The translations under genes were made by a program, and so were the position numbers. A DNA stretch of 64,000 bases, taken from assembly GCA_944324965.1 (NCBI GenBank), contig CALUYH010000007.1:1-64000 (forward strand). Reading direction: 5' to 3'. The notes beneath the pieces are model-generated. The model saw only the letters and a list, made by a program, of their open reading frames with translations, was not told where the DNA came from and made no database searches. The DNA is from Candidatus Avelusimicrobium gallinaceum. Lineage in GTDB: Bacteria; Elusimicrobiota; Elusimicrobia; Elusimicrobiales; Elusimicrobiaceae. This document shows positions 41,622 to 56,292 of the stretch, piece after piece. Numbering within the stretch: position 1 is the stretch's first letter; the number at the start of each line of letters is the position of its first letter.

Positions 41622-41735
41622 GTATTATGTCGGCGTCTGTTTATATAGATAACCAGTCGCCTACTTGCGCGCATTTTTTGGGAGCGCAAAAGATTTGTAC
41701 AAACTTAATTTTTAAGAAGGGAATTGGTCCCCAAA
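41622..41735 (+). other. Long structured 5' leader of the Tad-like operon
   Basis: About 114 bases separate the predicted start of transcription from the ATG. TTGCGC (41665-41670) and GCGCAA (41684-41689) form a stem with a 13-base loop. The ribosome-binding region AAGAAGGGA is at 41714-41722. The length is unusual here; a regulatory role is possible, but no known riboswitch class is recognised. Confidence 0.4.
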
Positions 41736-44700
41736 ATGGATACTTGCACAATGAAAAAAATAAACAGTTTACTTCGGGTTTTCCTGAGTAAAGCGGCGTC
41801 CTGCGCCGTTTTAACTGCATTACTCCTCGCGGCGGGTGCGCCGTTGTTTGCTCAAACGGCCGAGGTCCGCAATGCGGGTGTGTATTATAGGCCATCTACC
41901 ACTACCAACGGTATGTATTGCGATTGGAGTGCAGAAGGATTAGATGAATTGGTGGATAGTGTAAACGGATACAACCGCAGTTTTGTCACCTCTCCCGCGC
42001 CGGACGGCAATGCCAACCAAACGGACCCGTGGGTGAGCTCCGCCTTGATTGAGTACGACCAACCCTATCCGTCTACTACTCCGGCTGATAACAATTACCC
42101 GAACCATTGTTTGTCGCTGTGTATGCAGGTGGTATGTACCAACAAACCGATGGCGCAGAGTACGTATTCCATTTCGTTCCCGCTCCAACAAATTAAGTTT
42201 GATATCGTTAAATACTATAACGGCAAAAATATAGAAAACCCGGATGAAACGCCGGCTATTCGCACTATTTCTCTGTACCCTAATTTAGAAGAAGCCAAGT
42301 GCGGTTCCTATGTCTGCCCGGGCGGTCCGGCTGGCGAGTATACCTGCTCGGCCCCGAAATATGAATTAAGAAACGGAACTTGTTATGTTTTAGGAAAAAC
42401 TGAAGAGGCTCCCGGTGAGTGCAGCAGCAAATTGTCCACGGCTGAGGGCGGAAACTGCGAAAACCACAGCTGCAACTACATCATTTTTAACAACGACGGG
42501 ACGCCCACCAACCAGCCCATTACGTTCTGCGCGGCGTGGGACGGTTCGTACGAAATCGGCGGCGAATTTGGCAAGTCCAACGGGGATTATGCCTTCCGCG
42601 CCACGGTGGCGACGGATACTCCCGGCGATAACATCATCACCGATAAAATTGAATTTAACTCTACGATTGCCTACCCGGGCATGAATCAAATTCCGATACA
42701 GGTGGACGTGACGAACGTGCACTCTGTGCGCAGCACGCCGACCGTGGTGGGGGATATTACCGCCGTGTCGGCCCAGCCGTACACCTTTGCGTATCGCTTG
42801 AGCAAAGACTCCGATGTGCGTGTGGCCATTTTTGATGCGTCTAACAGCGATGACATTGACTATGGTGCGACCAATAATATCGACAATTTGGCCGCTACCT
42901 CATTAGTGCGCACGCTGGTGGATTGGCAGCCGCGCATGGGCGAAGGCATGAAAGGCACCGAAAGCGACACCCAGATTATTGAATTTGATTCGTGGGACGG
43001 CCGTAACGATTCCGGCATGCTGTTGCCGGCCGGCAACTATGTGGCGGCTATCCAGGCCAAAGCGCAAGACGAATGGCCGGGGGTGGACTTCTCCCGCGCC
43101 GTTACACGCCAAGTGTCTTTGGACCCGTTGAAATTGACGGATATCACGTCTACGGGCCTGAACAAAAAATCCACGGCGTATGCGTCCATCAATTACGTAC
43201 CGACGGAACCTTCCACCGTGTATTTGCAAATCTATACGCCCGGTACCACCTTTACGGGTGCTTCTACGCCCACCCAGGTGCTGACGGATTCTTCCACTCC
43301 CACGGGCACTGGCCCGACGGCGCAGGGCGGATCCTTGGTGTACAGCGCGTCCGAACAGCGCTCCGGCCGGATGAATTTTACGTCCAAATGGGACGGCTTG
43401 TGCGGTATGGAAGAAGGTTGTACCCGCACCTATGCCAAAGGGGAAGAAATGTCCAACGGTGTAGCGTGCGATCAAAACACCTGCACCGAAACCTTTGCTT
43501 ACGGCGCGCCGATGCCGGACGGCAACTATGTATATGTGCTGTGGGCGGAAATCCCGTACAACGGTTCTTATGTAAATGCCGTGGGCGGAAACGGTACCCC
43601 GGCGTTTACCGCGCAAGGAACCTGCGCAGCGGGGCAAAACGGCAAATGCTACACGGGTGTGAAAACGCTGAACTACTCCATCGGGCAGCTGCCGGTGGAA
43701 CGCGGGTTAGTGGATATCACCATTCAGCCCGTCAGCTATTCCACGGTAGGCTCCAGCCCGACGGCTTACGGCTTGGATCCGTTCATCTTTAAGTACGCCA
43801 TCGCGCGCGACGCCACGGTGATTGCCCGTGTGGAAAACGCCGCCGGCGTGCCGGTCAAACATTTAACGCCCGAAGAAGGCATCACGCAGGTTTCCCAACA
43901 GCTCAACACGCTGTCGTGGGACGGCCGCGACGACCAGGGCCGCATCGTCACCCCCGGTACCTATATGTTTACGGTACAAACCAAGGACGCGATGTTCCCC
44001 TCGGTCACCAACAAAGCCTCGGCGGTCTTCCCGGTGGATATGTACCGCGTGGTGGATGTTTCCACGACCGACGTGTATGGCGACAGTGAAGCCAAGGCCA
44101 CCATTTCTTATATGTTGTCCAAGGCGATGAACGTCCAAATCAACATCTATAATAAGGATGTCGTCATCCCGGCGTACAACGATACCACCGGCGATTATAA
44201 CGACTACACCGTTATTTCCACCCAGGTGGCTACGGGCTATACCAACGATTTAGCGTCCGTAAATGTGTACGAACAAGGCCAAACCGACATTTTTGCCACG
44301 TTAACAGCGGTGGATGTGGGTACGGTCGTGTCCTTAACGGGTACCAACAATCCGTACACGCGCGACACCATTACGGCGGCCGAAAACCCGAACTATGTGG
44401 AAGGCTCGGCCGTAGCGGGTGAAGAACAATATATCGTCACCTTAAAGCGCGAAAGCGTCAATGTCACGACCAACACCGCGACCACGTGGCCGCCCCGCAT
44501 CTGCGATAAGACGACCGATGCCAAATTATTCTGCCCGGCGGACGCTACCTGGACGGACGGCACCGGCGGTGCGGCGGGGACCTGTTCGGCCGCGTCGGTG
44601 GATTATGTGGTGCCTTCCCGCGCCACCTCGGCCAACGCTTGTATCTATGTGAACGATACGACGTTCACCAACTACCCGGCTACGGCGGCGCAAGCGGCCT

Positions 44701-46433
44701 CGGGCGTGGTGGATGTGCGCTTGCAGCCCGTCAAAACGTTTGACCGCTCGGCTACCAAAGCGGGCGAAGGCATGCCGATTACCGAAGAATGGGACGCGCT
44801 CTACTTCTACAACCCGACTCCGTCCACCGAACGCCACACGCAGGAAGAAATTACCGCCTGCACGGGCGCGACGGACCTGAAACAGTGCCCGTATGAAATG
44901 GTGCCGGACGGCCAGTATCCGTTCTTTATCTCGGCCCGCTCGGACGAAGCGTTCAACCGCTACTATGCCAACGGCGGTGAAACGATTGCGGGCAGTACGG
45001 GAACCTATCTGCCGGGTGCTCCGTTCAAAACGGCGGCCGAAGTGGAACAGCAGGATTACCTGTACGCGACGGAAAAACCCGTAAGCAAAATCAACGTCAC
45101 CCGCGGGCCGGTGTACTTCTTGGACGGCTCGGTGGTGGTGTATCCGAATGCGCCGCAGTTGTTTAACGCGTCTTCGGGCCCGGTGTTCATTCCGCCGTAC
45201 GAAATCAACTTTGCGGTGTCCCGTGCGTCTACCGTAGAAGTAGCCGTGGTGGCCTTGCAGCCCAATATGTGCTACGGCACCACCGGCACCCTCACCCAGC
45301 GCAACGCCGCTGCGGGCGAAGTGTGCAAATACCTCTCTACGATGACGATTGTCAACACCAGCGATTTTGACCCGAACATCACCCGCAAAATCTACTGGGA
45401 CGGTACGGACAACAACGGTATTTACGTCAAGCCGGGTATCTACGAAATCCGCCTGACGGCCAAAAACTACCCCGATCCGGGCTTGTACCAGGAAACGGTC
45501 AAGAGCGTCACCGTCAATGCCGACCTCTTGAAAGTGTTCGACTTGCTGGAAGCCGACGGCTATGCCATCTCCCAGCGCGGTACGGATATGAAGATTGGCT
45601 ACCAGATCTCGGTGCCGATGAAAGTGGCCATCCAAATCTTCAAACCCGGTACGACGATTTACGATTATCAGAAAGGCACCTTGCGTAACCCGACCACGGG
45701 TACGGAAGTGAAGGACATCCACGAAGTGCTGGTAAGAGCCATTGTGGGTATCCGCCCGGCCACCACGCTGATTGAAGAAGTGTGGGACGGCCGCGACTAT
45801 GCCCAGCAGGAAGTGCCGGACGGAACCTATCCGTTCCGCTTCGTAACGGCCCTCAATTCTGCCGATATTGACAGTGTAACCGGCGAAATTTTGGGCGGGG
45901 ACGATTCCAGCACCAACAGCCAGCTGTGGAGTGTGGATAAAGTGGCCGACACGTATCAATACCAGAACCTGCACAAGGCTACGGTGGCCATCGGTGACGG
46001 GCGCTTTGTCTGCGAGGATTGGGAGAAGACGGTATTCTTCTATCCGAACCCGCTGCGCGATGCTTCCAAAGGCACGCTGGAAATTACCAAAATGCCGGTG
46101 CCGGGCACGGTGTCTATCAAATTCTTCAACCTGGCGGGCGACTTGGTGCGCGACAGCAATTATACCTGCGTGGACGCCAATAACTACCAGATTACGATGG
46201 GCAGCAGCTTGCAGTTCAACCCGGACAACACGCCGGAAGGCGCTACCCAAATGACGGGCGACGACTTGGCCGCGTTCCCCAACCTCCGCAACGCCGCGTT
46301 GCGCTGCCGCTGGGACCGCACCAACCAACACGGCCGGAAAGTGGCCCGCGGCGTGTACTTCGGCCTGGTGGACTTTAAAGCCCAAAACGGCCGTGAGCAC
46401 TGCCAGAAAGTCGTCAAGATTTTGGTGCCGTAA
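41736..46433 (+). CDS. Giant secreted Cys-rich protein with about seven FlgD-like units
   Basis: The protein has 1565 residues with an N-terminal signal (hydrophobic helix about 22-40, cleavage near LFAQ). At least six units end in the FlgD-like pattern WDG-x-(D/N)-x-G-x-x-x-PxGxY: about residues 420, 551, 728, 1018 (degenerate), 1220 and 1350. The C-terminus (about 1425-1565) begins FYPNPLRDASKGTLEI and ends with WDRTNQHGRKVARGVYFG and KVVKILVP, which resembles the C-terminal sorting or FlgD-Ig domains of surface proteins exported in PorV-dependent systems. Many short CxnC loops suggest disulfides. I infer a surface fibre or adhesin. Start codons at 41736 (chosen for RBS distance), 41751 or TTG 41724 are possible. 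It heads the Tad-like operon. Confidence 0.88.
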   Translation: MDTCTMKKINSLLRVFLSKAASCAVLTALLLAAGAPLFAQTAEVRNAGVYYRPSTTTNGMYCDWSAEGLDELVDSVNGYNRSFVTSPAPDGNANQTDPWVSSALIEYDQPYPSTTPADNNYPNHCLSLCMQVVCTNKPMAQSTYSISFPLQQIKFDIVKYYNGKNIENPDETPAIRTISLYPNLEEAKCGSYVCPGGPAGEYTCSAPKYELRNGTCYVLGKTEEAPGECSSKLSTAEGGNCENHSCNYIIFNNDGTPTNQPITFCAAWDGSYEIGGEFGKSNGDYAFRATVATDTPGDNIITDKIEFNSTIAYPGMNQIPIQVDVTNVHSVRSTPTVVGDITAVSAQPYTFAYRLSKDSDVRVAIFDASNSDDIDYGATNNIDNLAATSLVRTLVDWQPRMGEGMKGTESDTQIIEFDSWDGRNDSGMLLPAGNYVAAIQAKAQDEWPGVDFSRAVTRQVSLDPLKLTDITSTGLNKKSTAYASINYVPTEPSTVYLQIYTPGTTFTGASTPTQVLTDSSTPTGTGPTAQGGSLVYSASEQRSGRMNFTSKWDGLCGMEEGCTRTYAKGEEMSNGVACDQNTCTETFAYGAPMPDGNYVYVLWAEIPYNGSYVNAVGGNGTPAFTAQGTCAAGQNGKCYTGVKTLNYSIGQLPVERGLVDITIQPVSYSTVGSSPTAYGLDPFIFKYAIARDATVIARVENAAGVPVKHLTPEEGITQVSQQLNTLSWDGRDDQGRIVTPGTYMFTVQTKDAMFPSVTNKASAVFPVDMYRVVDVSTTDVYGDSEAKATISYMLSKAMNVQINIYNKDVVIPAYNDTTGDYNDYTVISTQVATGYTNDLASVNVYEQGQTDIFATLTAVDVGTVVSLTGTNNPYTRDTITAAENPNYVEGSAVAGEEQYIVTLKRESVNVTTNTATTWPPRICDKTTDAKLFCPADATWTDGTGGAAGTCSAASVDYVVPSRATSANACIYVNDTTFTNYPATAAQAASGVVDVRLQPVKTFDRSATKAGEGMPITEEWDALYFYNPTPSTERHTQEEITACTGATDLKQCPYEMVPDGQYPFFISARSDEAFNRYYANGGETIAGSTGTYLPGAPFKTAAEVEQQDYLYATEKPVSKINVTRGPVYFLDGSVVVYPNAPQLFNASSGPVFIPPYEINFAVSRASTVEVAVVALQPNMCYGTTGTLTQRNAAAGEVCKYLSTMTIVNTSDFDPNITRKIYWDGTDNNGIYVKPGIYEIRLTAKNYPDPGLYQETVKSVTVNADLLKVFDLLEADGYAISQRGTDMKIGYQISVPMKVAIQIFKPGTTIYDYQKGTLRNPTTGTEVKDIHEVLVRAIVGIRPATTLIEEVWDGRDYAQQEVPDGTYPFRFVTALNSADIDSVTGEILGGDDSSTNSQLWSVDKVADTYQYQNLHKATVAIGDGRFVCEDWEKTVFFYPNPLRDASKGTLEITKMPVPGTVSIKFFNLAGDLVRDSNYTCVDANNYQITMGSSLQFNPDNTPEGATQMTGDDLAAFPNLRNAALRCRWDRTNQHGRKVARGVYFGLVDFKAQNGREHCQKVVKILVP

Positions 46434-46539: not shown

Positions 46540-47511
46540 ATGAATATAAGATTAAAAGTTTTAATTGCATGTTTAACGGTCGGTCTGGCAAGCGCCAGCG
46601 CGTCGGCTTCGTCTATTGATACGTATGCCGGTACCAGCGCGAGTGCGTTTTTAAAGATTGACGCCGGCTCCCCCAGAGCCCAGGCCTTAGGCAATGCCTA
46701 TGTGTCCATTGCGGACGGGCCGGAAGCCCTGTTTTGGAACCCGGCGGGGGCGGCCTCGGCCACCACGCGCGAGCTCCAGTTTGCGTATTTGGACTATTTG
46801 CAGGGGTACAAAGCCCGTACGCTGGCCTATTTGCAGCCGATTGGCAAAACCATTATCGGCGTGACGCTGAACTATATGGATATGGACGGGTTTGATTTCC
46901 GCGATGATACGGGCCAGTTAAACCCCGAAGTCGGCACCCCGGTGCAGAACTTTGTGGGCGGATTATCCATTGCGCGCGGATTTTTTGACCAGAAACTCCA
47001 AATCGGCGGTACGGCCAAATATATTTCGGAAAAGTTGGACTCCAACCACTACAACAACGTCGGTTTTGACGTGGGCGCCAAGCTGCGTCTGGTAAATTGG
47101 TTGGGTTTGGGCGGTGCGCTTGTGAACATCGGCGACCGCGAAGAAATGCCCCGCGGTTTGCGCTTGGGGGCGGACATCAACACGCGCTATTTTACGATTT
47201 CGGGCGAATATATGGAATACCGCGATGATAAAGCCCGCTACGGCGTAGGGTTGGAAATCCACATCCCCGAAGATTTGCTCCAGGTCGCCCGGTTTGATTT
47301 GCGCGTGGGTTATTATACCCGCGACAACACCGGTGTAAGCACCGAAGATTGGGTAAGCAGCCTGGGGTTGGAAGAAACTTCTAAAGTATCGTTCGGGTTT
47401 GGTATTTACAGCTCGGAATTGTTCGGCTACGGTGCGTCTATTGACTATGCCGTCACGCCGTTCGGAGCGTTGGGCACGTCGCAGCAGATTGCGCTGGCCA
47501 TCCAGTTTTAA
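46540..47511 (+). CDS. PorV/PorQ (UPF0164)-type outer-membrane barrel
   Basis: The protein has 323 residues with a signal peptide (about 1-24, SASA). The mature N-terminus AFLKIDAGSPRAQALGNAYVSIADGPEALFWNPAG is the hallmark of the PorV/PorQ/UPF0164 family of FadL-like barrels. About 14 amphipathic strands follow and the last ends in AIQF. In Bacteroidetes PorV is the shuttle that takes type IX cargo at the outer membrane; related proteins occur in phyla without a classical type IX system. Here it follows a gene for a giant protein with a sorting-domain-like C-terminus, so a carrier role for that protein is a reasonable inference. Confidence 0.9.
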   Translation: MNIRLKVLIACLTVGLASASASASSIDTYAGTSASAFLKIDAGSPRAQALGNAYVSIADGPEALFWNPAGAASATTRELQFAYLDYLQGYKARTLAYLQPIGKTIIGVTLNYMDMDGFDFRDDTGQLNPEVGTPVQNFVGGLSIARGFFDQKLQIGGTAKYISEKLDSNHYNNVGFDVGAKLRLVNWLGLGGALVNIGDREEMPRGLRLGADINTRYFTISGEYMEYRDDKARYGVGLEIHIPEDLLQVARFDLRVGYYTRDNTGVSTEDWVSSLGLEETSKVSFGFGIYSSELFGYGASIDYAVTPFGALGTSQQIALAIQF

Positions 47512-47514
47512 CGT

Positions 47515-47700
47515 ATGACGAAAGAGGGCAAAACGAAAAAATGGTTGAACAATAAAGGCCAAACCGCGGTAGAATATATGGTAATAGCGGCGGGCCTGTT
47601 GACGGCGATTATTTCGTTTTATGTGCTCTATTCGTATATGGTTCCGCAGCAGTTTGAAGAAGGGGCCAAAGTCGTTTTGTCGGACTATGACGTGAGCTGA
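47515..47700 (+). CDS. Flp-type pilin-like protein (first)
   Basis: This 61-residue protein has a basic leader ending KG, then QTAVEYMVIAAGLLTAIISFYVLYSY, the Flp-type prepilin motif (G/QTAVEY) with Glu at +5 and Tyr at +6, and a hydrophobic helix. After cleavage the mature part would be about 46 residues. It starts four bases after the PorV-like gene. It differs from the next pilin and may be a minor or initiating subunit. Confidence 0.85.
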   Translation: MTKEGKTKKWLNNKGQTAVEYMVIAAGLLTAIISFYVLYSYMVPQQFEEGAKVVLSDYDVS

Positions 47701-47732: not shown

Positions 47733-47954
47733 ATGAAGTTTATCGTTGCTTTGCAAACCAGAATGGAAGCCTTGAAAGCGCAGGCTTTGGGCTGCCTGAA
47801 GAAACAAGAAGGCCAGAACACGATTGAATACGTATTGATGCTCGTAGTGGTCGTGGGCGTGGCTGGCTTGGCCGGTGTGTTGATTAAGAACTATATGCCT
47901 GAATTGTTTGAACAAATTAAAGGCAAAATCACCGGCAATATGGAAAGCATGTAA
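47733..47954 (+). CDS. flp: Flp pilin, probable major subunit
   Basis: The protein has 73 residues. The prepilin site is EG/QNTIEYVLML with Glu at +5 and Tyr at +6, then a helix to residue 52 and a short amphipathic tail with KNYMPELFEQIKGKITG. The leader is about 27 residues, long for the group. Size and sequence are those of tight-adherence (Tad) Flp pilins. The RBS AGGAGGA is the best of the operon, consistent with the highest translation, as expected for the major subunit. Confidence 0.92.
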   Translation: MKFIVALQTRMEALKAQALGCLKKQEGQNTIEYVLMLVVVVGVAGLAGVLIKNYMPELFEQIKGKITGNMESM

Positions 47955-47965
47955 TTTGAGGGTGT

Positions 47966-48454
47966 ATGAACAAATTTCGTAGGAAGTGTGGCGGGCAGGT
48001 AACGGCGGAGCTGATGTTTATTTTGCCGGTATTTATGTTGATGATTTTCTTCGTCCTTGAATACGGCAACATCGCCTACCACACGATTATTGCTAACCAC
48101 GCTTCCTATGAGTTTGCCCGTATCGGTTCGCTGGTAGCCGTCAAAAAGCCCAGCGGCCGGCCGGACAGAACGGTTATAACGCAAAAAATCAACCAAGCCA
48201 AGCAGAAAGTGTTTGGCACCAAATCGGGCGGTATTGCCGTAAACGTGAAGGTGGAAACCACCGGCACGGACCCGATGTATAAAAAGCACCGCCACGAAGA
48301 CGTGGTGGTTACGGTAACGTATCCCGTGCATTTGATGTTCCCTGGCACCAGCTATGTGCTGGCCAGCGAGCCCCGCCGGGAAGGCATCCGTAAAATAAGA
48401 GCTACGGCCCGGATGCCGATTGAAAAAGCGTATCTGAGTTCGGATACCAAATAA
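47966..48454 (+). CDS. tadE: TadE-like pseudopilin
   Basis: The protein has 162 residues. The processing site is GG/QVTAELMFILPVFMLMIFFVLEYGNIAY with the Glu at +5, as in TadE, and the mature domain is a beta-rich periplasmic part. TadE-type subunits are minor pilins needed for assembly, cleaved by the prepilin peptidase. It follows the Flp gene by 11 bases. Confidence 0.87.
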   Translation: MNKFRRKCGGQVTAELMFILPVFMLMIFFVLEYGNIAYHTIIANHASYEFARIGSLVAVKKPSGRPDRTVITQKINQAKQKVFGTKSGGIAVNVKVETTGTDPMYKKHRHEDVVVTVTYPVHLMFPGTSYVLASEPRREGIRKIRATARMPIEKAYLSSDTK

Positions 48455-48499: not shown

Positions 48500-49255
48500 A
48501 TGAAAAAAGGAATCTTTCTTCCGTTGGTGATAGCCTTGTTGGCTGCCCTCATATACGGGATGATTGTGAACAGCGCGTCTAAAAAACTGAACGCGTCCAA
48601 AAACATCAAGCAGGTGTTTGTGCCTGTGCGCGATATTAAAGAACGCGAAGTCATCAAGCGCGACTACATCAAAACGGTGCCGGTGCCGGCGGCGTACCTG
48701 CAGAAGGATGCGTTTACCTACACGACGGATGCCGACTTTAAAGCGATTGAAAACGCCGTCGCGCGCATTCAAATTCCGAAAGGGAACCAGATTTCCAAAT
48801 ATGCCGTAACCTCGCTGTCTCCCGAGGCCGGCTTGTCCAGCAAAATCCCGGTGCAGATGAGAGGTTTCGTCATCAACAACATTCCGCTGGCTACCGCCAG
48901 TATGATTAAACCGGACGACAACGTGGATATTTTGCTGACGTTTGAAGCCGTAATGAAAAGCGGCGCCCGCCAGAAAGTGACGGTGACGCTGCTGCAGAAC
49001 GTAAAAGTATTGGGCGTCGGGGCCGACTTGGGCCAGGGGCTGGATGCCAAATCCGCCAGCGCGATGGAAGCCAAGGACGAAGATGCCGCCGCCTATTCGG
49101 ACAGCTCGGCGCTTTCGCTGGCGCTTTCGCCGCGTGACGCGCAGTATTTGGCGCTTGCTCAGGCGGAAGGGGATATTTCCGTCATCTTGCGTACGCCCGG
49201 CGACGTGACCAACTACTTGATGGAAATCGCGACCTTTGAGAAATTATTTCAATAA
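48500..49255 (+). CDS. cpaB: CpaB/RcpC-type pilus assembly protein
   Basis: The 251-residue protein has an N-terminal helix (about 5-22) and a SAF domain (VFVPVRDIKEREVIKRDYIKTVPVPAAYLQKDA, about 39-72), then the family RIQIPKGNQI and PDDNVDILLTFEA sections. RcpC/CpaB supports the outer-membrane secretin and may bind peptidoglycan. RBS AAGGAGA precedes it. A two-gene pair with the secretin follows the order found in Tad loci. Confidence 0.9.
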   Translation: MKKGIFLPLVIALLAALIYGMIVNSASKKLNASKNIKQVFVPVRDIKEREVIKRDYIKTVPVPAAYLQKDAFTYTTDADFKAIENAVARIQIPKGNQISKYAVTSLSPEAGLSSKIPVQMRGFVINNIPLATASMIKPDDNVDILLTFEAVMKSGARQKVTVTLLQNVKVLGVGADLGQGLDAKSASAMEAKDEDAAAYSDSSALSLALSPRDAQYLALAQAEGDISVILRTPGDVTNYLMEIATFEKLFQ

Positions 49256-49269
49256 CGTACAGGACTGAT

Positions 49270-50016
49270 ATGACGAATAAAAAGTTTATAGTTAATGTAT
49301 CCCTTGCGGTATTACTTTTCAGTGTGCTGCTGCCGTCGTGCGCGTTTGCCAAAAAAACGCGTCTGGTGGCCGTCAGCGCCGACGTGGTGGAAATCAGCGG
49401 AACCATGCAAAGCGTGAAAGGTTTTTCGTGGAACCAGCTGTTTGACTTTGAGGAAGCCTCCATTCCCGGCATATTGTCCTTGGGCGAGTTTGAACGCAAA
49501 ACCGCCGTTACGACGCGCCTGCGCTTGATGGAAACGGAAGGCCGTGCCCAGGTGCTGTCCAACCCGAAGATTGTTACTTCCTCCGGCAACAGCGCCAAAA
49601 TCACCGTCGGCGGCAAGGTGCCGATACCGATTGTAAACAATCAGGGTGTCGGTTCGCAGCTGGAAGAATACGGCATTTTGCTTAACGTATTGCCTACGAT
49701 TATTCCCGAACGCAACAACATCATTGATTTGCAGGTGCAGCTGTCCGTGTCCACGGTGGACTATTCCAGAACGGTAGTCATCGGTACGGCCACGGCGCCT
49801 TCTTTCACCAACCGCGACGTGGAAACCCACGTGGAACTCAACAGCGGCGAAACGCTGGTCATCGGCGGGCTGAAAAGCAGCTCGCGCAACGTGTCCGAAG
49901 ACCGCGTGCCGTTCTTGGGCCGCATTCCGCTGATTGGCTTGTTGTTTAAGAGCAAAGACGTAACGGAAGAACAACGCTCGTTATTCCTGTTTATTACGGT
50001 TGAAATTGTGGAATAG
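49270..50016 (+). CDS. cpaC: CpaC/RcpA-type secretin, short form
   Basis: The protein has 248 residues with a signal peptide (about 1-27; an LPSC sequence could also be read as a weak lipobox). Almost the whole remainder is a secretin C-domain: ILSLGEFERKTAVTTRLRLMETEGRAQVLSNPKIVTSSG, VGGKVPIP, then ETLVIGGL and VPFLGRIPLIGLLF, the end signature of secretins. RcpA/CpaC proteins usually have N-terminal ring domains before this part, and are around 400-500 residues; these are absent here. The channel would therefore have no normal periplasmic vestibule unless other proteins supply it. Confidence 0.9.
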   Translation: MTNKKFIVNVSLAVLLFSVLLPSCAFAKKTRLVAVSADVVEISGTMQSVKGFSWNQLFDFEEASIPGILSLGEFERKTAVTTRLRLMETEGRAQVLSNPKIVTSSGNSAKITVGGKVPIPIVNNQGVGSQLEEYGILLNVLPTIIPERNNIIDLQVQLSVSTVDYSRTVVIGTATAPSFTNRDVETHVELNSGETLVIGGLKSSSRNVSEDRVPFLGRIPLIGLLFKSKDVTEEQRSLFLFITVEIVE

Positions 50017-50021
50017 TTTTT

Positions 50022-52337
50022 ATGGCAGAAGAAAACGCAATCCAAAAAACTGATGCTAAGATTATTGCTTTTTCCGGTCCGAAAGAAGGGGCCGGAAAAA
50101 CCACGCTTGTGCTGAACTTGGCGTTGGGCTGGGCGGGCATTCAAAAACGCCCGGTGCTGATTGTGCCGCTGGACCCGTTGGCCCGGCAGGAACACAGCTT
50201 TTATTTGGATATCAAAAAGCCGGTCAGCGTTTCGGACATTTTGCGGACGCTGGGCAACACGTCTATTGCCGTAGTGGGCGGGTTGCTGCGCGGGAAGATT
50301 TCCATGTCCCAGTGGGGGGTAGGTGTATTGCCGCTGGGTAATACGCGCGCGCAGGTGGCGGCTATCAGCCCTAAAATTTTAATTCCTATTCTGTCGCGCC
50401 TGTCGCAGACGTTTGATATTTTCCTGGATGTGGATTCCAGCTTCCCCATGCAGGCTTTTGCCTTTGATATTGCGGACAAGGTGTTTTGGGTTTCCCAAGC
50501 CACCCGCACGCATTTAAATTCCACCGTACAGCTTTTTAACGATTACAAAGAACAGCGCTACCCGATGGACCGCGTGAGCATTATCTGCAACGCGTACGAT
50601 ATGCCCGGGTCTATCCCGTACGAAGAAGTAGAACGCTTTTATTCGTCTTTGGGGCGCGAAATTGACGTGTTTTTGCCCTGGGATGACGAGGTGATGGCCA
50701 CTTCCAACCGCAAAGAAGTGGAAATTATCACCAACCCCCAGTCGGAATGGGTGAAAGGCCTGCGCCTGGTGCTGGCCAAAATCCGCGATTTGAAACCGGC
50801 CCCGAAAGATTGGGTGGCCTCGGTGTCGGACGAAGAATTTACCCAAGCCGCCAAAGAAATTTGGAGCCCGATTCTGTTTGACGACGGCAAAACCACCAGC
50901 GTGGCGGAGCACGTGGCCGCGGAAGACGAAGGCAACCAGACCAAACTGTCGTTTTGGGACGATTTGAAACAGAAAATCCACAAAGAAGTGGTGCACACGC
51001 TGGAAATTGAACACATCGTGGTGAGCGACGAAAACACCGCCAGCGAACAAACCCGCAAACGGGTGGCCGCCATTGTGGACGATATTTTGCAAAAGCAGCC
51101 CAACTTGCAGTTCTCGCGCGACCAGCGCACGCGCTTCTCGTCGGAACTGTTGGACGAAATTTTGGGCTTGGGGCCGCTGGAAGTATTAATGCGCGACCCG
51201 GCCGTTACCGAAATCATGGTCAACGCGTTTGACAAAATCTTCATCGAACAAAAAGGTAAACTGACGCTGACCAAATACAAATTCCGCAACAACGACCAAG
51301 TGGTGCAGGTGATTAAACGCATCGTGGCGCCGCTGGGCCGCCGTATTGACGAATCCGTGCCGCTCGTGGACGCCCGCTTGAAAGACGGCTCCCGTGTGAA
51401 CGCCATCATCGCGCCGCTGGCCGTGTCCGGCCCGACGCTGACCATCCGTCGTTTCTCGCAAAAACCGTTCGGCCCGGAAGATTATTACCGTTTTGGAACC
51501 ATCAGCCCGGAATGTATGGCCTTTATTGAACAGTGCGTCCGTATCCGCAAGAACATCATCGTGTGCGGCGGTACGGGTACCGGTAAAACCACGTTCTTAA
51601 ACGCCATTTCCGGCTATATCGCCAACGATGAACGTATCATCACCGTGGAAGACACCGCGGAATTGCGCTTGCAGCAGCCGCACTGGGTGTCTTTGGAAAG
51701 CCGTCCGCCAAACGTGGAAGGCAAAGGGGCGATTACCATTCAGGATTTAGTCAAAAACTGCTTGCGTATGCGTCCGGACCGCATTGTGGTCGGGGAATGC
51801 CGCGGCGGCGAAGCACTGGATATGTTGCAGGCGATGAACACCGGTCACGAAGGTTCGCTGACCACCATTCACGCCAACACGCCGCGCGACGGGCTGTCCC
51901 GCTTGGAAGCCATGTGCATGCAGACGGGGGCCGAATTGCCGGTGTACGTAATCCGCGAAATGATTTCCTCGGCCGTAAACATGATTGTGCAGCTGTCGCG
52001 TTTTTCGGACGGTTCCAGAAAGGTAACCTATATCACCGAAATGCACGGCCAAAAAGACGGGGAAATCCAATCCACGGATTTGTTCCGCTACGTGCAGACC
52101 GGCGTGGACGAAAACGGCAAAGTGCAGGGCGTGTTTGCGCCTACGGGCCAACTGCCGACGTTTTTTGATGAATTTGCCTCCAAAGGGCACCCGGTGGATA
52201 AAAACATTTTCTTGAAAAATGCCGTCCCTCTGGACGAAAACGGCGAACCGGACAAACAGGCCGTAGCGCGCTTGCAGCAGCAAATGGCGGCCAAAAACGT
52301 TCCGCCTGCTCCGCCCGCGGCGCCGGTGCAGCATTAA
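50022..52337 (+). CDS. TadZ-TadA (CpaE-CpaF) fusion ATPase
   Basis: The 771-residue cytoplasmic protein joins two Tad ATPases. Residues 1-265 are a MinD/ParA-like TadZ domain with deviant Walker A K21-E-G-A-G-K-T-T and later IFLDVDSSFP. About 290-345 is a linker. From about 345 the secretion ATPase TadA/CpaF follows: RTRFSSELLDEILGLGPLEVLMRDPAVTEIMVN, Walker A GGTGTGKTT with Lys522, Asp-box EDTAEL, Walker B with Glu592 (DRIVVGECRG), and the His box GSLTTIHANT. In most Tad loci these are separate genes (tadZ, tadA). Fusion would hold the polar-localising ATPase in a 1:1 ratio with the motor. The motifs on both sides are intact. Confidence 0.92.
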   Translation: MAEENAIQKTDAKIIAFSGPKEGAGKTTLVLNLALGWAGIQKRPVLIVPLDPLARQEHSFYLDIKKPVSVSDILRTLGNTSIAVVGGLLRGKISMSQWGVGVLPLGNTRAQVAAISPKILIPILSRLSQTFDIFLDVDSSFPMQAFAFDIADKVFWVSQATRTHLNSTVQLFNDYKEQRYPMDRVSIICNAYDMPGSIPYEEVERFYSSLGREIDVFLPWDDEVMATSNRKEVEIITNPQSEWVKGLRLVLAKIRDLKPAPKDWVASVSDEEFTQAAKEIWSPILFDDGKTTSVAEHVAAEDEGNQTKLSFWDDLKQKIHKEVVHTLEIEHIVVSDENTASEQTRKRVAAIVDDILQKQPNLQFSRDQRTRFSSELLDEILGLGPLEVLMRDPAVTEIMVNAFDKIFIEQKGKLTLTKYKFRNNDQVVQVIKRIVAPLGRRIDESVPLVDARLKDGSRVNAIIAPLAVSGPTLTIRRFSQKPFGPEDYYRFGTISPECMAFIEQCVRIRKNIIVCGGTGTGKTTFLNAISGYIANDERIITVEDTAELRLQQPHWVSLESRPPNVEGKGAITIQDLVKNCLRMRPDRIVVGECRGGEALDMLQAMNTGHEGSLTTIHANTPRDGLSRLEAMCMQTGAELPVYVIREMISSAVNMIVQLSRFSDGSRKVTYITEMHGQKDGEIQSTDLFRYVQTGVDENGKVQGVFAPTGQLPTFFDEFASKGHPVDKNIFLKNAVPLDENGEPDKQAVARLQQQMAAKNVPPAPPAAPVQH

Positions 52338-52358: not shown

Positions 52359-53984
52359 ATGACGAAAAAAATTCAACTGTTAGTTTGGAGCATTTTGTGT
52401 GCAGTGGCTGTGGCTATGCCGCCTGCGGCAGCGGCCCGCGCGCTGGGAAAGCAGGATTTGGCGCGCATCCAGTGCGCGCAGGAAAAAATGCGTATTATGG
52501 CCGAATTTTTTGATGTCAGCATGCCGGCGAGCGAAAAAGTTTACACCTTGCCCAACGTGTGCGGTGCCCAAGCCGGCAAAACGGTCAAAATGCCCGAATG
52601 GTTTGCTGCCGAGCTGGACCGGATGGACAAAAATAAAGTCGTCTACGTCCCGAACGAAGGCACATACAGCGAAGTGGATTTGTGGCGCCAGGCGTTTTCC
52701 AACGTGTATTTGTATTTGGACCGGGCGGCTAAATCGCTGGACCCGAATCAGCCCGTGGTGATGGAACAGCTCTCGCGCGGTTTTGTGGGCAACCGCATTA
52801 ACCTGATGGCCACGCTGGACCGCCTGAATAAAGATTTGCTGCGCGGTCAGCAGCTGCTGATTATGAAGGACAGTATGGACGGCCGTGCGCGCTCCATGCT
52901 GGCCACGTTTGAACTGATTAACAGCGAATTTTTCAGCACGATTGAAGCGTTGTCCAGCCCTATTTCCCAGCGGGAAAACAAATACCGCCAATCGGTGATG
53001 GCGGTGGTGGTGTTGGCCAACCACTTGTACTCGCAATTTTTAAGCACGGCTATTCCGATGAATCCGCCGGACCCCAAAATTTATCGCACGACCGCGGCAG
53101 ACCGTGCCGTAAACTTTTTTATGCTGGTGTTGGGCTCGGCCTTGGCGGGGTTGGCGGTCTACCTGCTGTTGGAAAACAAACGGGAAGACATTTTAAAATT
53201 GGCCTCGGAATACAAACAAAAAAGCGAAGCGTGGGCCGAAGATTTCAACCGCCAGTTCGTAACGATTGACATTAAATACATCGTGTTCGGCACCATCGGA
53301 CTTTTTGCCATCATCGGGCTGATGTTCGGGCTGATGACGGGCGGATTTACGGGCGTGTTCTTTTTCCTGCTGATTGTATTTATCGGCGGGGTAATCAGCA
53401 TCCGGATGCCGATGGCCGTGCTGGACGCACTTAAAAAGAGCCGCGGCAAACGCGTCAACAAACAGCTGATGGACGCGCTGATTTTGCTTTCCAACTCGCT
53501 CCGTTCGGGTATGGATATCGTGCAGGGGTTTGAACTGGTGGCGCGGGATATGCTGCCGCCGATTTCGGACGAGTTCGGCCTGGTGATTAAAAACTACCAG
53601 CTGGGCACCCCGTTTGAAAAAGCGCTGGACGGCCTTTCGGAACGTGTGGAAAGCCGTATGCTTTCGTATATCATCAAAGCCATCATCATCCAGCGGCAGG
53701 TGGGCGGTAACCTGACGGTCATCTTTGCCCGCTTGGTGGAAAACATCCGCGAAGAAAGCAAACTGGAAGAAAAACTGCAGGCGATGACGGCCCAGCAGAA
53801 AATCCAATCCATCGTCGTCAGCGTGATGCCGTTTGTAATGATGTTTGTGATGTTTATTTTCAACCCGTCGCAGATGATTTCGTTCTACACCAGCCCGGTG
53901 GGAATGTTTGTATTCTTGTTCTGTATCATCTGGATCGGCATCGGTATGAAGGTGCTGAAGAAAATGGGTGAGGTACGGGTCTAA
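52359..53984 (+). CDS. tadB: TadB-like platform protein with an extra exported N-terminal domain
   Basis: The protein has 541 residues. The C-terminal half has helices at about 310-350, then the type II secretion F domain (about 370-500: LMDALILLSNSLRSGMDIVQGF and QRQVGGNLTVIFARLVENIREE) and final helices, which is TadB. TadB is usually about 300 residues. The first 245 residues here are new: a signal peptide (about 1-26), two cysteines (C39 and C68) and helical sequence, followed by a membrane helix (about 249-270). This part should lie in the periplasm. It may contact the secretin or the pilin entry, which is inference. Confidence 0.88.
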   Translation: MTKKIQLLVWSILCAVAVAMPPAAAARALGKQDLARIQCAQEKMRIMAEFFDVSMPASEKVYTLPNVCGAQAGKTVKMPEWFAAELDRMDKNKVVYVPNEGTYSEVDLWRQAFSNVYLYLDRAAKSLDPNQPVVMEQLSRGFVGNRINLMATLDRLNKDLLRGQQLLIMKDSMDGRARSMLATFELINSEFFSTIEALSSPISQRENKYRQSVMAVVVLANHLYSQFLSTAIPMNPPDPKIYRTTAADRAVNFFMLVLGSALAGLAVYLLLENKREDILKLASEYKQKSEAWAEDFNRQFVTIDIKYIVFGTIGLFAIIGLMFGLMTGGFTGVFFFLLIVFIGGVISIRMPMAVLDALKKSRGKRVNKQLMDALILLSNSLRSGMDIVQGFELVARDMLPPISDEFGLVIKNYQLGTPFEKALDGLSERVESRMLSYIIKAIIIQRQVGGNLTVIFARLVENIREESKLEEKLQAMTAQQKIQSIVVSVMPFVMMFVMFIFNPSQMISFYTSPVGMFVFLFCIIWIGIGMKVLKKMGEVRV

Positions 53985-53986
53985 TT

Positions 53987-54874
53987 ATGAGCATGGGATT
54001 AACTTTTGTTTTAATGTTGCTGGTGCTGATTGGGGCCGCTGCGGTAGGGTACGCGGTGCTGAACCTGCTTGCGCCGGCGCAGCCCAAGGAAAAGATTGTA
54101 GACGTGGATGTGCGGCGTTTTAAATCCGCCTCCAGTTTTGCGCGCTTGAAACCCGACGAAAAACTGATGGACCGGCTGGCGGTGTTCTGCCTGCACAACT
54201 TCCACCTGGAAAAAAGCCTGGAAACCATGCACATGCAGCTGGGCAGCCCGGATAATCCGCAGCCCGTGGATATTTTGTATTCCAAAATCATCTCCGCTTT
54301 GGCCATTCCGGCGGCGATGATGCTGTTGTTCCAGTCCGTGTGGCCGGTGGTGCTGGTGCCGCTGTGCTTTATGGTTCCGGACGTGATTATCAAAAGCAAA
54401 ATCCAAAAGCGCCAGGCGGAAATTTTGGGCAACTTTTCCACCACGGTGGATTTGGCGGCGCTGATTATTGAATCCGGCTTGGATTATTTAACCGCGTTTG
54501 AAAGAATCATCAAAATCGCCAAGGTTAAAACCGTGCTGGAAGAAGAACTGGACAAAACGATTAACGAAATTAAACTGGGGTACTCCCGCCGCGAAGCGCT
54601 GGAACGCTTTTCGGCCCGCACAGGGGTAGCGGAAGTGCGCTCCCTGGTGAGCTTGATTATTCAATCCGATGAACTCGGTACGAGCTTGGTGGACCTGCTG
54701 CGTAACTTCTCGTCGGATTTGCGCTCCACGCGTTTAAGCCGCGCCGAAAAACTGGCGGCCCAGGCGTCTACCAAGATGCTTTTCCCGCTGTTTATGTTTA
54801 TTTTCCCGACGATTTTTATTTTAATTTTAGCCCCGATGATTAGCGGTTTACTCAACGGAGGCATGGGCTTTTAG
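53987..54874 (+). CDS. tadC: TadC-like platform protein
   Basis: The protein has 295 residues: an N-terminal helix (about 4-26), helices near 105-130, a type II secretion F domain (about 148-270, GNFSTTVDLAALIIESGLDYLTAFERI and SLVSLIIQSDELGTSLVDLLRNF), and a last helix. It pairs with TadB as the inner-membrane platform that couples the motor ATPase to pilin addition. It begins two bases after the tadB stop. Confidence 0.93.
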   Translation: MSMGLTFVLMLLVLIGAAAVGYAVLNLLAPAQPKEKIVDVDVRRFKSASSFARLKPDEKLMDRLAVFCLHNFHLEKSLETMHMQLGSPDNPQPVDILYSKIISALAIPAAMMLLFQSVWPVVLVPLCFMVPDVIIKSKIQKRQAEILGNFSTTVDLAALIIESGLDYLTAFERIIKIAKVKTVLEEELDKTINEIKLGYSRREALERFSARTGVAEVRSLVSLIIQSDELGTSLVDLLRNFSSDLRSTRLSRAEKLAAQASTKMLFPLFMFIFPTIFILILAPMISGLLNGGMGF

Positions 54875-54885
54875 AGGATAAACTT

Positions 54886-56292
54886 ATGAAAAAGAACCTT
54901 ATTTTTATTTCGCTTTTGGTTTGCGCGGCGCTGAACGTGTACGCGGCGGCCAGTTTCCGCAAAGAAATCCCGGTGCGCCAGCACGGCAAAGAAGCCGGCA
55001 TGCTGTTGGATTTAAGCAAAATTTCCATGGGTACGCTTAACGACGTGGAAGAAAAGAAACAATACTTGTCCACCGTCCAGCTGGAAAAACAGCGCATCCA
55101 AAACTATACCTTGCGTATGGTGTACGAAAACGCCTACCTGCTCTACAAACACGGTGATTATCAGCGCGCGCAGGAAATGGCCCAAACCATTTTGAGCATT
55201 GACCCCAACTTTAAACAAGCCCAAACGTTGGCGCGCCAGGCCCAGCATATGGGTACGTACGGCACTATTTCCGAGGCGCAGGTGATTGAAGCCAAATTCC
55301 AGGAAACCATCCGCCTGTATGACAGCGGCCGCCTGGTGGAAGCCAACGATAAATTAAACGAAATTTTAACCATCCAGCCCGGCAACTCCAAAGCCCAGGC
55401 CTGGAAACGCAAAATTGATTACGATATTGCCAAAGAATATACCCGCCGCGGCGATGTGGCCTACGAAAAAGGCGACTATCAGGACGCGCTGGACGCGTGG
55501 TATAACGCTTTGCTGATGCGCAAGGACGACCCCAAACTGGTGGCCAAAATTTCCGAAACGGAAAACAAACTGCGCAAACAGCAAGTGGCCGATTCTATGA
55601 AACAGGCCCTGGATTTCTACAACAAAGGGCAGTTTGTGGAAGCGTACGCCGTGTTTGAGCGGATTACCAAAATCCAGCCCGGCGATCCGCGCGTGCAGAA
55701 ATATATGTCCCAGTTAAAGAACGAAATTGCGGCCGGATATTACAACGCGGGGAACAAATCGTACAATTCCAACCGGTTTGACCAAGCCGTTTCGTACTGG
55801 ACCAACGCCAAAAAATGGGGTGCCGATTCCGGAATGATGGACGCGCTGATTAAACGGGCGCGCAACGCCAAAGAAAACCACCTGCGCGTGAAACAGGAAC
55901 AAGCGCAGCAGGCGGAAGTCGCGGCCCAAAAGGCCGAAGAAGCGGCCCAGAAGGCCGAAGAAACGGCCCAGCAGGCCGCCACCGAAGAACCGATTGAAAC
56001 GGTGACGGTGGACAATTCGCTCATCCCCGGTGCCAGCAGCGGCGGCATTGGTACTTCTGTCGGTGCGGTAGGCACCAACGAAACGCTGCCCACGCTGGGC
56101 GGAACGACGACGAACCGCGTGTCGCCTGAAGCCAGTGCGGCTTCCCGCGCCAAATACATTGAAGGGCTGGACGCCTTCAACCAGGACGATTACGAACGCG
56201 CCCGCCAGGCCTGGATTGTGGCCAAACAACTGGACCCGGGCAACAGCGACGCCGATTTGGGCCTGCGCAAAGTGGAAGAATTGATGAGGTAG
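54886..56292 (+). CDS. Exported TPR protein (TadD-like)
   Basis: The protein has 468 residues with a signal peptide (about 1-21). At least five tetratricopeptide units are visible, for example LLYKHGDYQRAQEMAQTILSIDPN (about 85-108), GDVAYEKGDYQDALDAWYNALL (about 190-211) and LDAFNQDDYERARQAWIVAKQLDPG near the end. A coiled, Ala/Glu/Gln-rich segment (about 337-365, repeats of AQKAEEA) divides them. TadD is a TPR lipoprotein in many Tad loci; here no lipobox is seen, so it is an analogue. It probably scaffolds secretin or pilus proteins in the periplasm. Confidence 0.85.
   Translation: MKKNLIFISLLVCAALNVYAAASFRKEIPVRQHGKEAGMLLDLSKISMGTLNDVEEKKQYLSTVQLEKQRIQNYTLRMVYENAYLLYKHGDYQRAQEMAQTILSIDPNFKQAQTLARQAQHMGTYGTISEAQVIEAKFQETIRLYDSGRLVEANDKLNEILTIQPGNSKAQAWKRKIDYDIAKEYTRRGDVAYEKGDYQDALDAWYNALLMRKDDPKLVAKISETENKLRKQQVADSMKQALDFYNKGQFVEAYAVFERITKIQPGDPRVQKYMSQLKNEIAAGYYNAGNKSYNSNRFDQAVSYWTNAKKWGADSGMMDALIKRARNAKENHLRVKQEQAQQAEVAAQKAEEAAQKAEETAQQAATEEPIETVTVDNSLIPGASSGGIGTSVGAVGTNETLPTLGGTTTNRVSPEASAASRAKYIEGLDAFNQDDYERARQAWIVAKQLDPGNSDADLGLRKVEELMR

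Follow-up and report, generated by a model that had tools for sequence, protein, structure and literature searches.

A TadZ-type MinD/ParA domain as the putative N-terminal module of the CpaF/TadA motor in Elusimicrobiota

The DNA analysed here (the window) is a stretch of 64,000 nucleotides from Candidatus Avelusimicrobium gallinaceum (Elusimicrobiota; Elusimicrobiaceae), positions 1 to 64,000 of contig CALUYH010000007.1 in assembly GCA_944324965.1. The host's closest named relatives are UBA1436 and further bins of the Elusimicrobiaceae, a Ca. Avelusimicrobium assembly among them. It contains a Tad operon in the order two Flp-like pilins, TadE, CpaB, secretin, fusion, TadB, TadC and a TPR protein (Table 1). 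The fusion, at 50022-52337 of the forward strand, is a frame of 771 codons that runs from ATG to stop without an internal stop. The first-pass annotation had read it as TadZ and TadA joined in one polypeptide, with the motifs KEGAGKTT at residues 21-28 and GGTGTGKTT at 516-524; motif positions and frame length are exact, and a domain search places Pfam CbiA (CobQ/MinD/ParA; residues 15-232, E 6e-7) and Pfam T2SSE (residues 382-661, E 3e-62, 210.7 bits) in this same polypeptide.

Table 1. The fused gene, its parts and the surrounding Tad operon (positions in the window)
Feature	Position	Strand	Size, basis or remark
Flp-type pilin A	47515..47700	+	61 aa; weak match, below cut-off
Flp-type pilin B	47733..47954	+	73 aa; weak match, below cut-off
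TadE	47966..48454	+	Pfam
CpaB/RcpC	48500..49255	+	Pfam, NCBIfam
Short secretin	49270..50016	+	248 aa; Pfam; ends 5 nt before the fused gene
Fused TadZ-TadA (TadZ-CpaF) gene	50022..52337	+	771 aa
TadZ/MinD-like domain, residues ~13-260	50058..50801	+	Pfam CbiA, AF2 model
Deviant Walker A KEGAGKTT, residues 21-28	50082..50105	+	sequence motif
Helix past the MinD fold, residues ~270-285	50829..50876	+	AF2 full-length model
Disordered linker, residues ~283-307	50868..50942	+	AF2 low confidence
CpaF/TadA motor (three-helix bundle, NTD and ATPase), residues ~312-730	50955..52211	+	Pfam, NCBIfam, structure alignment, AF2
Motor Walker A GGTGTGKTT, residues 516-524	51567..51593	+	sequence motif
TadB platform protein, long N-terminal extension	52359..53984	+	
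TadC platform protein	53987..54874	+	Pfam
TPR protein, TadD-like by position	54886..56292	+	

The operon order is kept throughout the Elusimicrobiaceae and their sister family. Some of its members are unusual in their own right. The Tad secretin comprises little beyond the secretin core, and its usual N-terminal ring domains would therefore be short or missing. TadB begins with an extension of ~250 residues that has a signal-like start and no Pfam match; the extension is kept in the Elusimicrobiaceae and their sister family, while alignments to TadB of most other families and phyla searched are confined to its C-terminal part. Directly 5' of the operon lie two adjoining genes, one (41724-46433) for a protein of 1569 residues that has FlgD-like Ig repeats, carries a weak C-terminal sorting signal of the CHU_C type and is possibly displayed on the cell surface, and one (46540-47511) for an outer-membrane-barrel-like protein.

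The genome encodes four T2SSE proteins; the fusion is the sole CpaF match at E ≤ 1e-60, and the other three are found elsewhere. A separate TadZ elsewhere in the genome was considered and rejected, since the only match to an N-domain profile at E ≤ 1e-5 is the fused copy. Two ParA-type proteins (L055 and L056) were likewise discarded as TadZ candidates and are read as Soj/ParA and Mrp/ApbC.

The annotation of the C-terminal half as a complete CpaF/TadA motor holds. Apart from the T2SSE match, Caulobacter crescentus CpaF structures align to fusion residues 315-717 (403 residues; 8rkd and 9e24, the best solved matches, both at E 1e-114, the next best at 1e-40). The motor lysine Lys522 and the catalytic glutamate Glu592 do not vary in any of the 209 aligned rows, a set that includes near-copies, and the gene is placed within a Tad locus that has Flp pilin, TadE, CpaB, secretin, TadB and TadC. 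The score against NCBIfam TIGR03819, 328.7 bits, falls under the curated cut-off of 373.15, yet this is the best-scoring NCBIfam model; because of the cut-off we do not claim the strict NCBIfam TadA label for the fusion.

The N-terminal half is best read as a TadZ-type MinD/ParA domain. Its AF2 model (pLDDT 86) matches the folds of FleN, ParA (3ea0) and MinD at Z 22-24 (top 24.1; 3ea0 23.7), and TadZ (3fkq) at Z 20.3 over 3fkq residues 125-354, a range without the receiver-type domain. A profile built from fused N-domains only gives 62-165 bits to separate TadZ genes directly 5' of unfused CpaF and 52 bits to Soj/ParA of the source genome; it also gives 78 bits to MinD (1hyq) and 120 bits to ParA (3ea0), so that TadZ and MinD are not cleanly separated by sequence. 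It is the combination of position, operon and profile that makes TadZ the best reading. MinD homology starts at residue ~13 of the fusion and the receiver-type (REC/ARD) region is absent; in most separate TadZs the MinD homology starts only after ~130-190 residues, and a Response_reg domain is recognised in two of the four separate TadZs scanned. Lacking the receiver-type domain, the fused half would thus correspond to the ATPase domain of TadZ and not to the full protein.

The AF2 full-length model of the fusion consists of two folded parts joined by a linker of pLDDT <50 (model residues 271-295); with a pTM of 0.51, the relative orientation of the two domains is not fixed. The helix that follows the MinD fold is possibly a membrane helix. 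Only the Elusimicrobiaceae and most sister-family members have it in amphipathic form, and we rejected the idea of a membrane-targeting helix conserved across the phylum.

Fifty-three of 61 same-genus genomes encode the whole fusion in a single frame, at 85-97% identity. The remaining copies are cut by a contig end (n=5) or broken in frame (n=1, genome G037); one genome has the C-terminal piece alone (G021) and one has no copy (G025). An intact split pair of tadZ and tadA was found in none of the 61, and the fusion reading survives this search for split genes in close relatives, the pattern expected of a sequencing error. In the next family the fusion is whole in most of 40 genomes. Phylum-wide, matches to the N-domain and to CpaF coincide in frames of ~650-880 residues in most of the families with a Tad motor, and all N-terminal halves read across Elusimicrobiota contain a MinD-type domain, which in one family (f21) can hardly be recognised (profile E about 1e-9). 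Judged by this distribution, the fusion is not peculiar to the source genome: it is old and widespread in Elusimicrobiota.

Outside the phylum we examined a domain-wide sample of about 53 genomes, 13 of which have CpaF. The same fusion is present in two of these 13, from two small phyla. In the first of these lineages it is whole in four of five genomes, the frame of the fifth being cut short N-terminally, and in the second both genomes have it; the CpaB-secretin-fusion-TadB order is kept at the out-of-phylum loci opened, and both lineages also have unfused CpaF paralogues. In the other 11 genomes CpaF either stands alone or is preceded by an FHA domain or some other N-terminal extension. One out-of-phylum CpaF, a frame of 642 residues (L205), has its three-helix-bundle/NTD region apparently duplicated in tandem ahead of a complete motor. 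Several unfused out-of-phylum systems have a separate TadZ directly 5' of CpaF, and in plasmid Tad loci of Paraburkholderia, Rhodobacter, Pontibacillus and Burkholderia tadZ is separate and directly 5' of tadA. The survey of homologues thus bears out the first-pass statement that the two are normally separate genes: they are fused across Elusimicrobiota and split, with tadZ 5' of tadA, in several genomes from outside the phylum as well as at the inspected plasmid loci. Four records on named plasmids that matched at least 80% of the query had been candidates for further fusions; each match extends across two annotated genes, and the plasmid loci opened (H2, H3, H4 and H7) hold split genes.

In a tree of CpaF sequences, fused members are strongly clustered, with four label changes against 23 in shuffles. 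A strict single clade of all fused CpaF is rejected (AU p 0.009); a single fused clade allowing three nested unfused Elusimicrobiota paralogues, which this test treats as later losses, is not (p 0.097). The origin may lie in one ancient fusion followed by losses or transfer, or in more than one fusion. A second CpaF without the fusion (L241:4509-5564; L242:14388-15608) is found at two loci, near a secretin and at most about 10 kb from the fused copy. Both unfused copies nest among fused Elusimicrobiota CpaFs on the tree, which suggests duplicates that have shed the TadZ half and the three-helix bundle.

Within the genus both halves are under purifying selection of similar strength (dN/dS 0.009-0.042 for the N-domain and 0.013-0.041 for the motor). 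The deviant Walker A KEGAGKTT of the window protein is intact, and loss of P-loop residues within the class Elusimicrobia is sporadic. Among 16 distinct sequences from Elusimicrobiota families outside this class, 14 have the P-loop lysine replaced by Q or R and also miss the switch-I aspartate, and the remaining two have lost the signature lysine. Loss of the P-loop or signature lysine alongside an intact motor is seen at L184-L188, L190-L198, L252 and L253. Going by these residues, the degenerate fused domains outside the class are recurrent pseudo-ATPases. Their dN/dS is still low, 0.05-0.12 with dS near saturation, and together with the loss of the P-loop this points to the N-domain probably being kept in those lineages for something besides ATP turnover. 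The term 'localisation ATPase' used in the first-pass annotation is therefore not always literal, the P-loop being degenerate in many relatives.

We consider it likely, with good but not full confidence, that the TadZ-type domain is a permanent N-terminal module of the Tad motor that docks and positions it; most likely TadZ is present in the motor hexamer as an obligate subunit at a 1:1 ratio and docks the motor to the base of the pilus. The working form of CpaF is a hexamer (PMC12019362). In the in situ map of the C. crescentus machine, predicted models were fitted as six CpaE dimers ringing the CpaF hexamer, and the contacts between CpaE dimers were attributed to their REC domains (PMC13170226). 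We infer localisation, stoichiometry and ATPase activity for the fusion. Since CpaF is a hexamer and one gene encodes both parts, each ring would bear exactly six tethered TadZ domains, 1:1 with the motor subunits, provided that the protein is uncut. These would take over the job of the separate TadZ/CpaE ring and, on their flexible linkers, dock and position the motor beneath the TadB/TadC platform or the membrane, and the covalent tether would stand in for REC, by which separate CpaE dimers are linked. Where the deviant Walker A is intact, as in the window protein, neighbouring TadZ domains may pair on ATP and so gate docking; in members that have lost the P-loop they would form a nucleotide-independent scaffold. 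The broader proposal, a fourth CpaF architecture with TadZ as an obligate 1:1 ring subunit that in several lineages no longer needs ATP, we put forward tentatively, at somewhat short of even chances.

The N-domain could instead act chiefly in cis, regulating the ATPase cycle of the motor or its switching between extension and retraction, and not its position. It sits where C. crescentus CpaF has a disordered region that was proposed to modulate the motor, and the tether would hold it near the ring; however, C. crescentus CpaF without the disordered region retains ATPase activity, the direction switch has been argued against (PMC12019362), and P-loop lysine and switch-I aspartate are gone in many fused members. 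We regard such regulation as unlikely. A far slimmer chance attaches to separate TadZ and TadA being released in the cell through read-through or post-translational cleavage, which would make the fusion merely genetic: the linker, disordered and of variable sequence, is one that a protease could cut, but the junction has neither a stop nor a conserved internal start, no conserved internal start yielding a free motor was found in the fused genes, and the alignment holds no conserved cleavage motif. That sequencing or assembly joined two genes can be set aside, as the whole protein in one frame in 53/61 same-genus genomes speaks against chance or misassembly, the same fused frame recurs in many Elusimicrobiota families and in two further phyla, and nothing except a few MAGs with truncated or frame-broken copies speaks in favour.

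A docking module remains our preferred reading. A 2025 survey of 292 CpaF orthologues distinguished the core only, the core with an IDR and the core with an IDR and FHA, with no MinD-fused class (PMC12019362); MinD-fused CpaF is an architecture absent from these three published classes. A 2019 paper noted Tad systems in Elusimicrobia, its relevant passages making no mention of the fusion (PMC6668835), and we found no description of a TadZ-CpaF fusion in the open-access full-text literature, a scope that takes in few subscription papers. For the question of how the Tad motor is engaged by TadZ/CpaE, this natural and deeply conserved fusion provides Rosetta-stone evidence of joint action and makes the link directly testable: it sets the ratio at 1:1, drops REC and offers natural P-loop-dead forms, which allows one to ask which part of TadZ matters, and it provides a single polypeptide for structural study of the coupled TadZ-motor complex. 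If the fourth architecture is real, the essential task of TadZ would be to dock the motor independently of nucleotide, and the CpaE:CpaF ring modelled at 12:6 in Caulobacter would not be universal.

Among the nearest solved folds of the N-domain are FleN/FlhG and MinD (Z 22-24), which are not fused to a secretion ATPase and act on flagellar number or cell division. With C. crescentus CpaF (PDB 8rkd, 8rjf and 9e24) the fusion shares the three-helix bundle, the NTD and the ATPase, to which it adds a MinD-like domain of ~270 residues and a linker. FHA-CpaF (class III; for instance a Moraxella bovis plasmid protein, L222) likewise has a globular domain on the CpaF N-terminus; however, its appended FHA binds phosphopeptides and is no component of the Tad machine itself. 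With TadZ/CpaE (Eubacterium rectale TadZ, 3fkq; C. crescentus CpaE) the fused domain has in common the MinD/ParA fold, the deviant Walker A and the place immediately 5' of TadA. It differs from them in having no N-terminal receiver-type domain, in a P-loop that is degenerate in most sampled fused members outside the class Elusimicrobia, and in being covalently joined to the motor.
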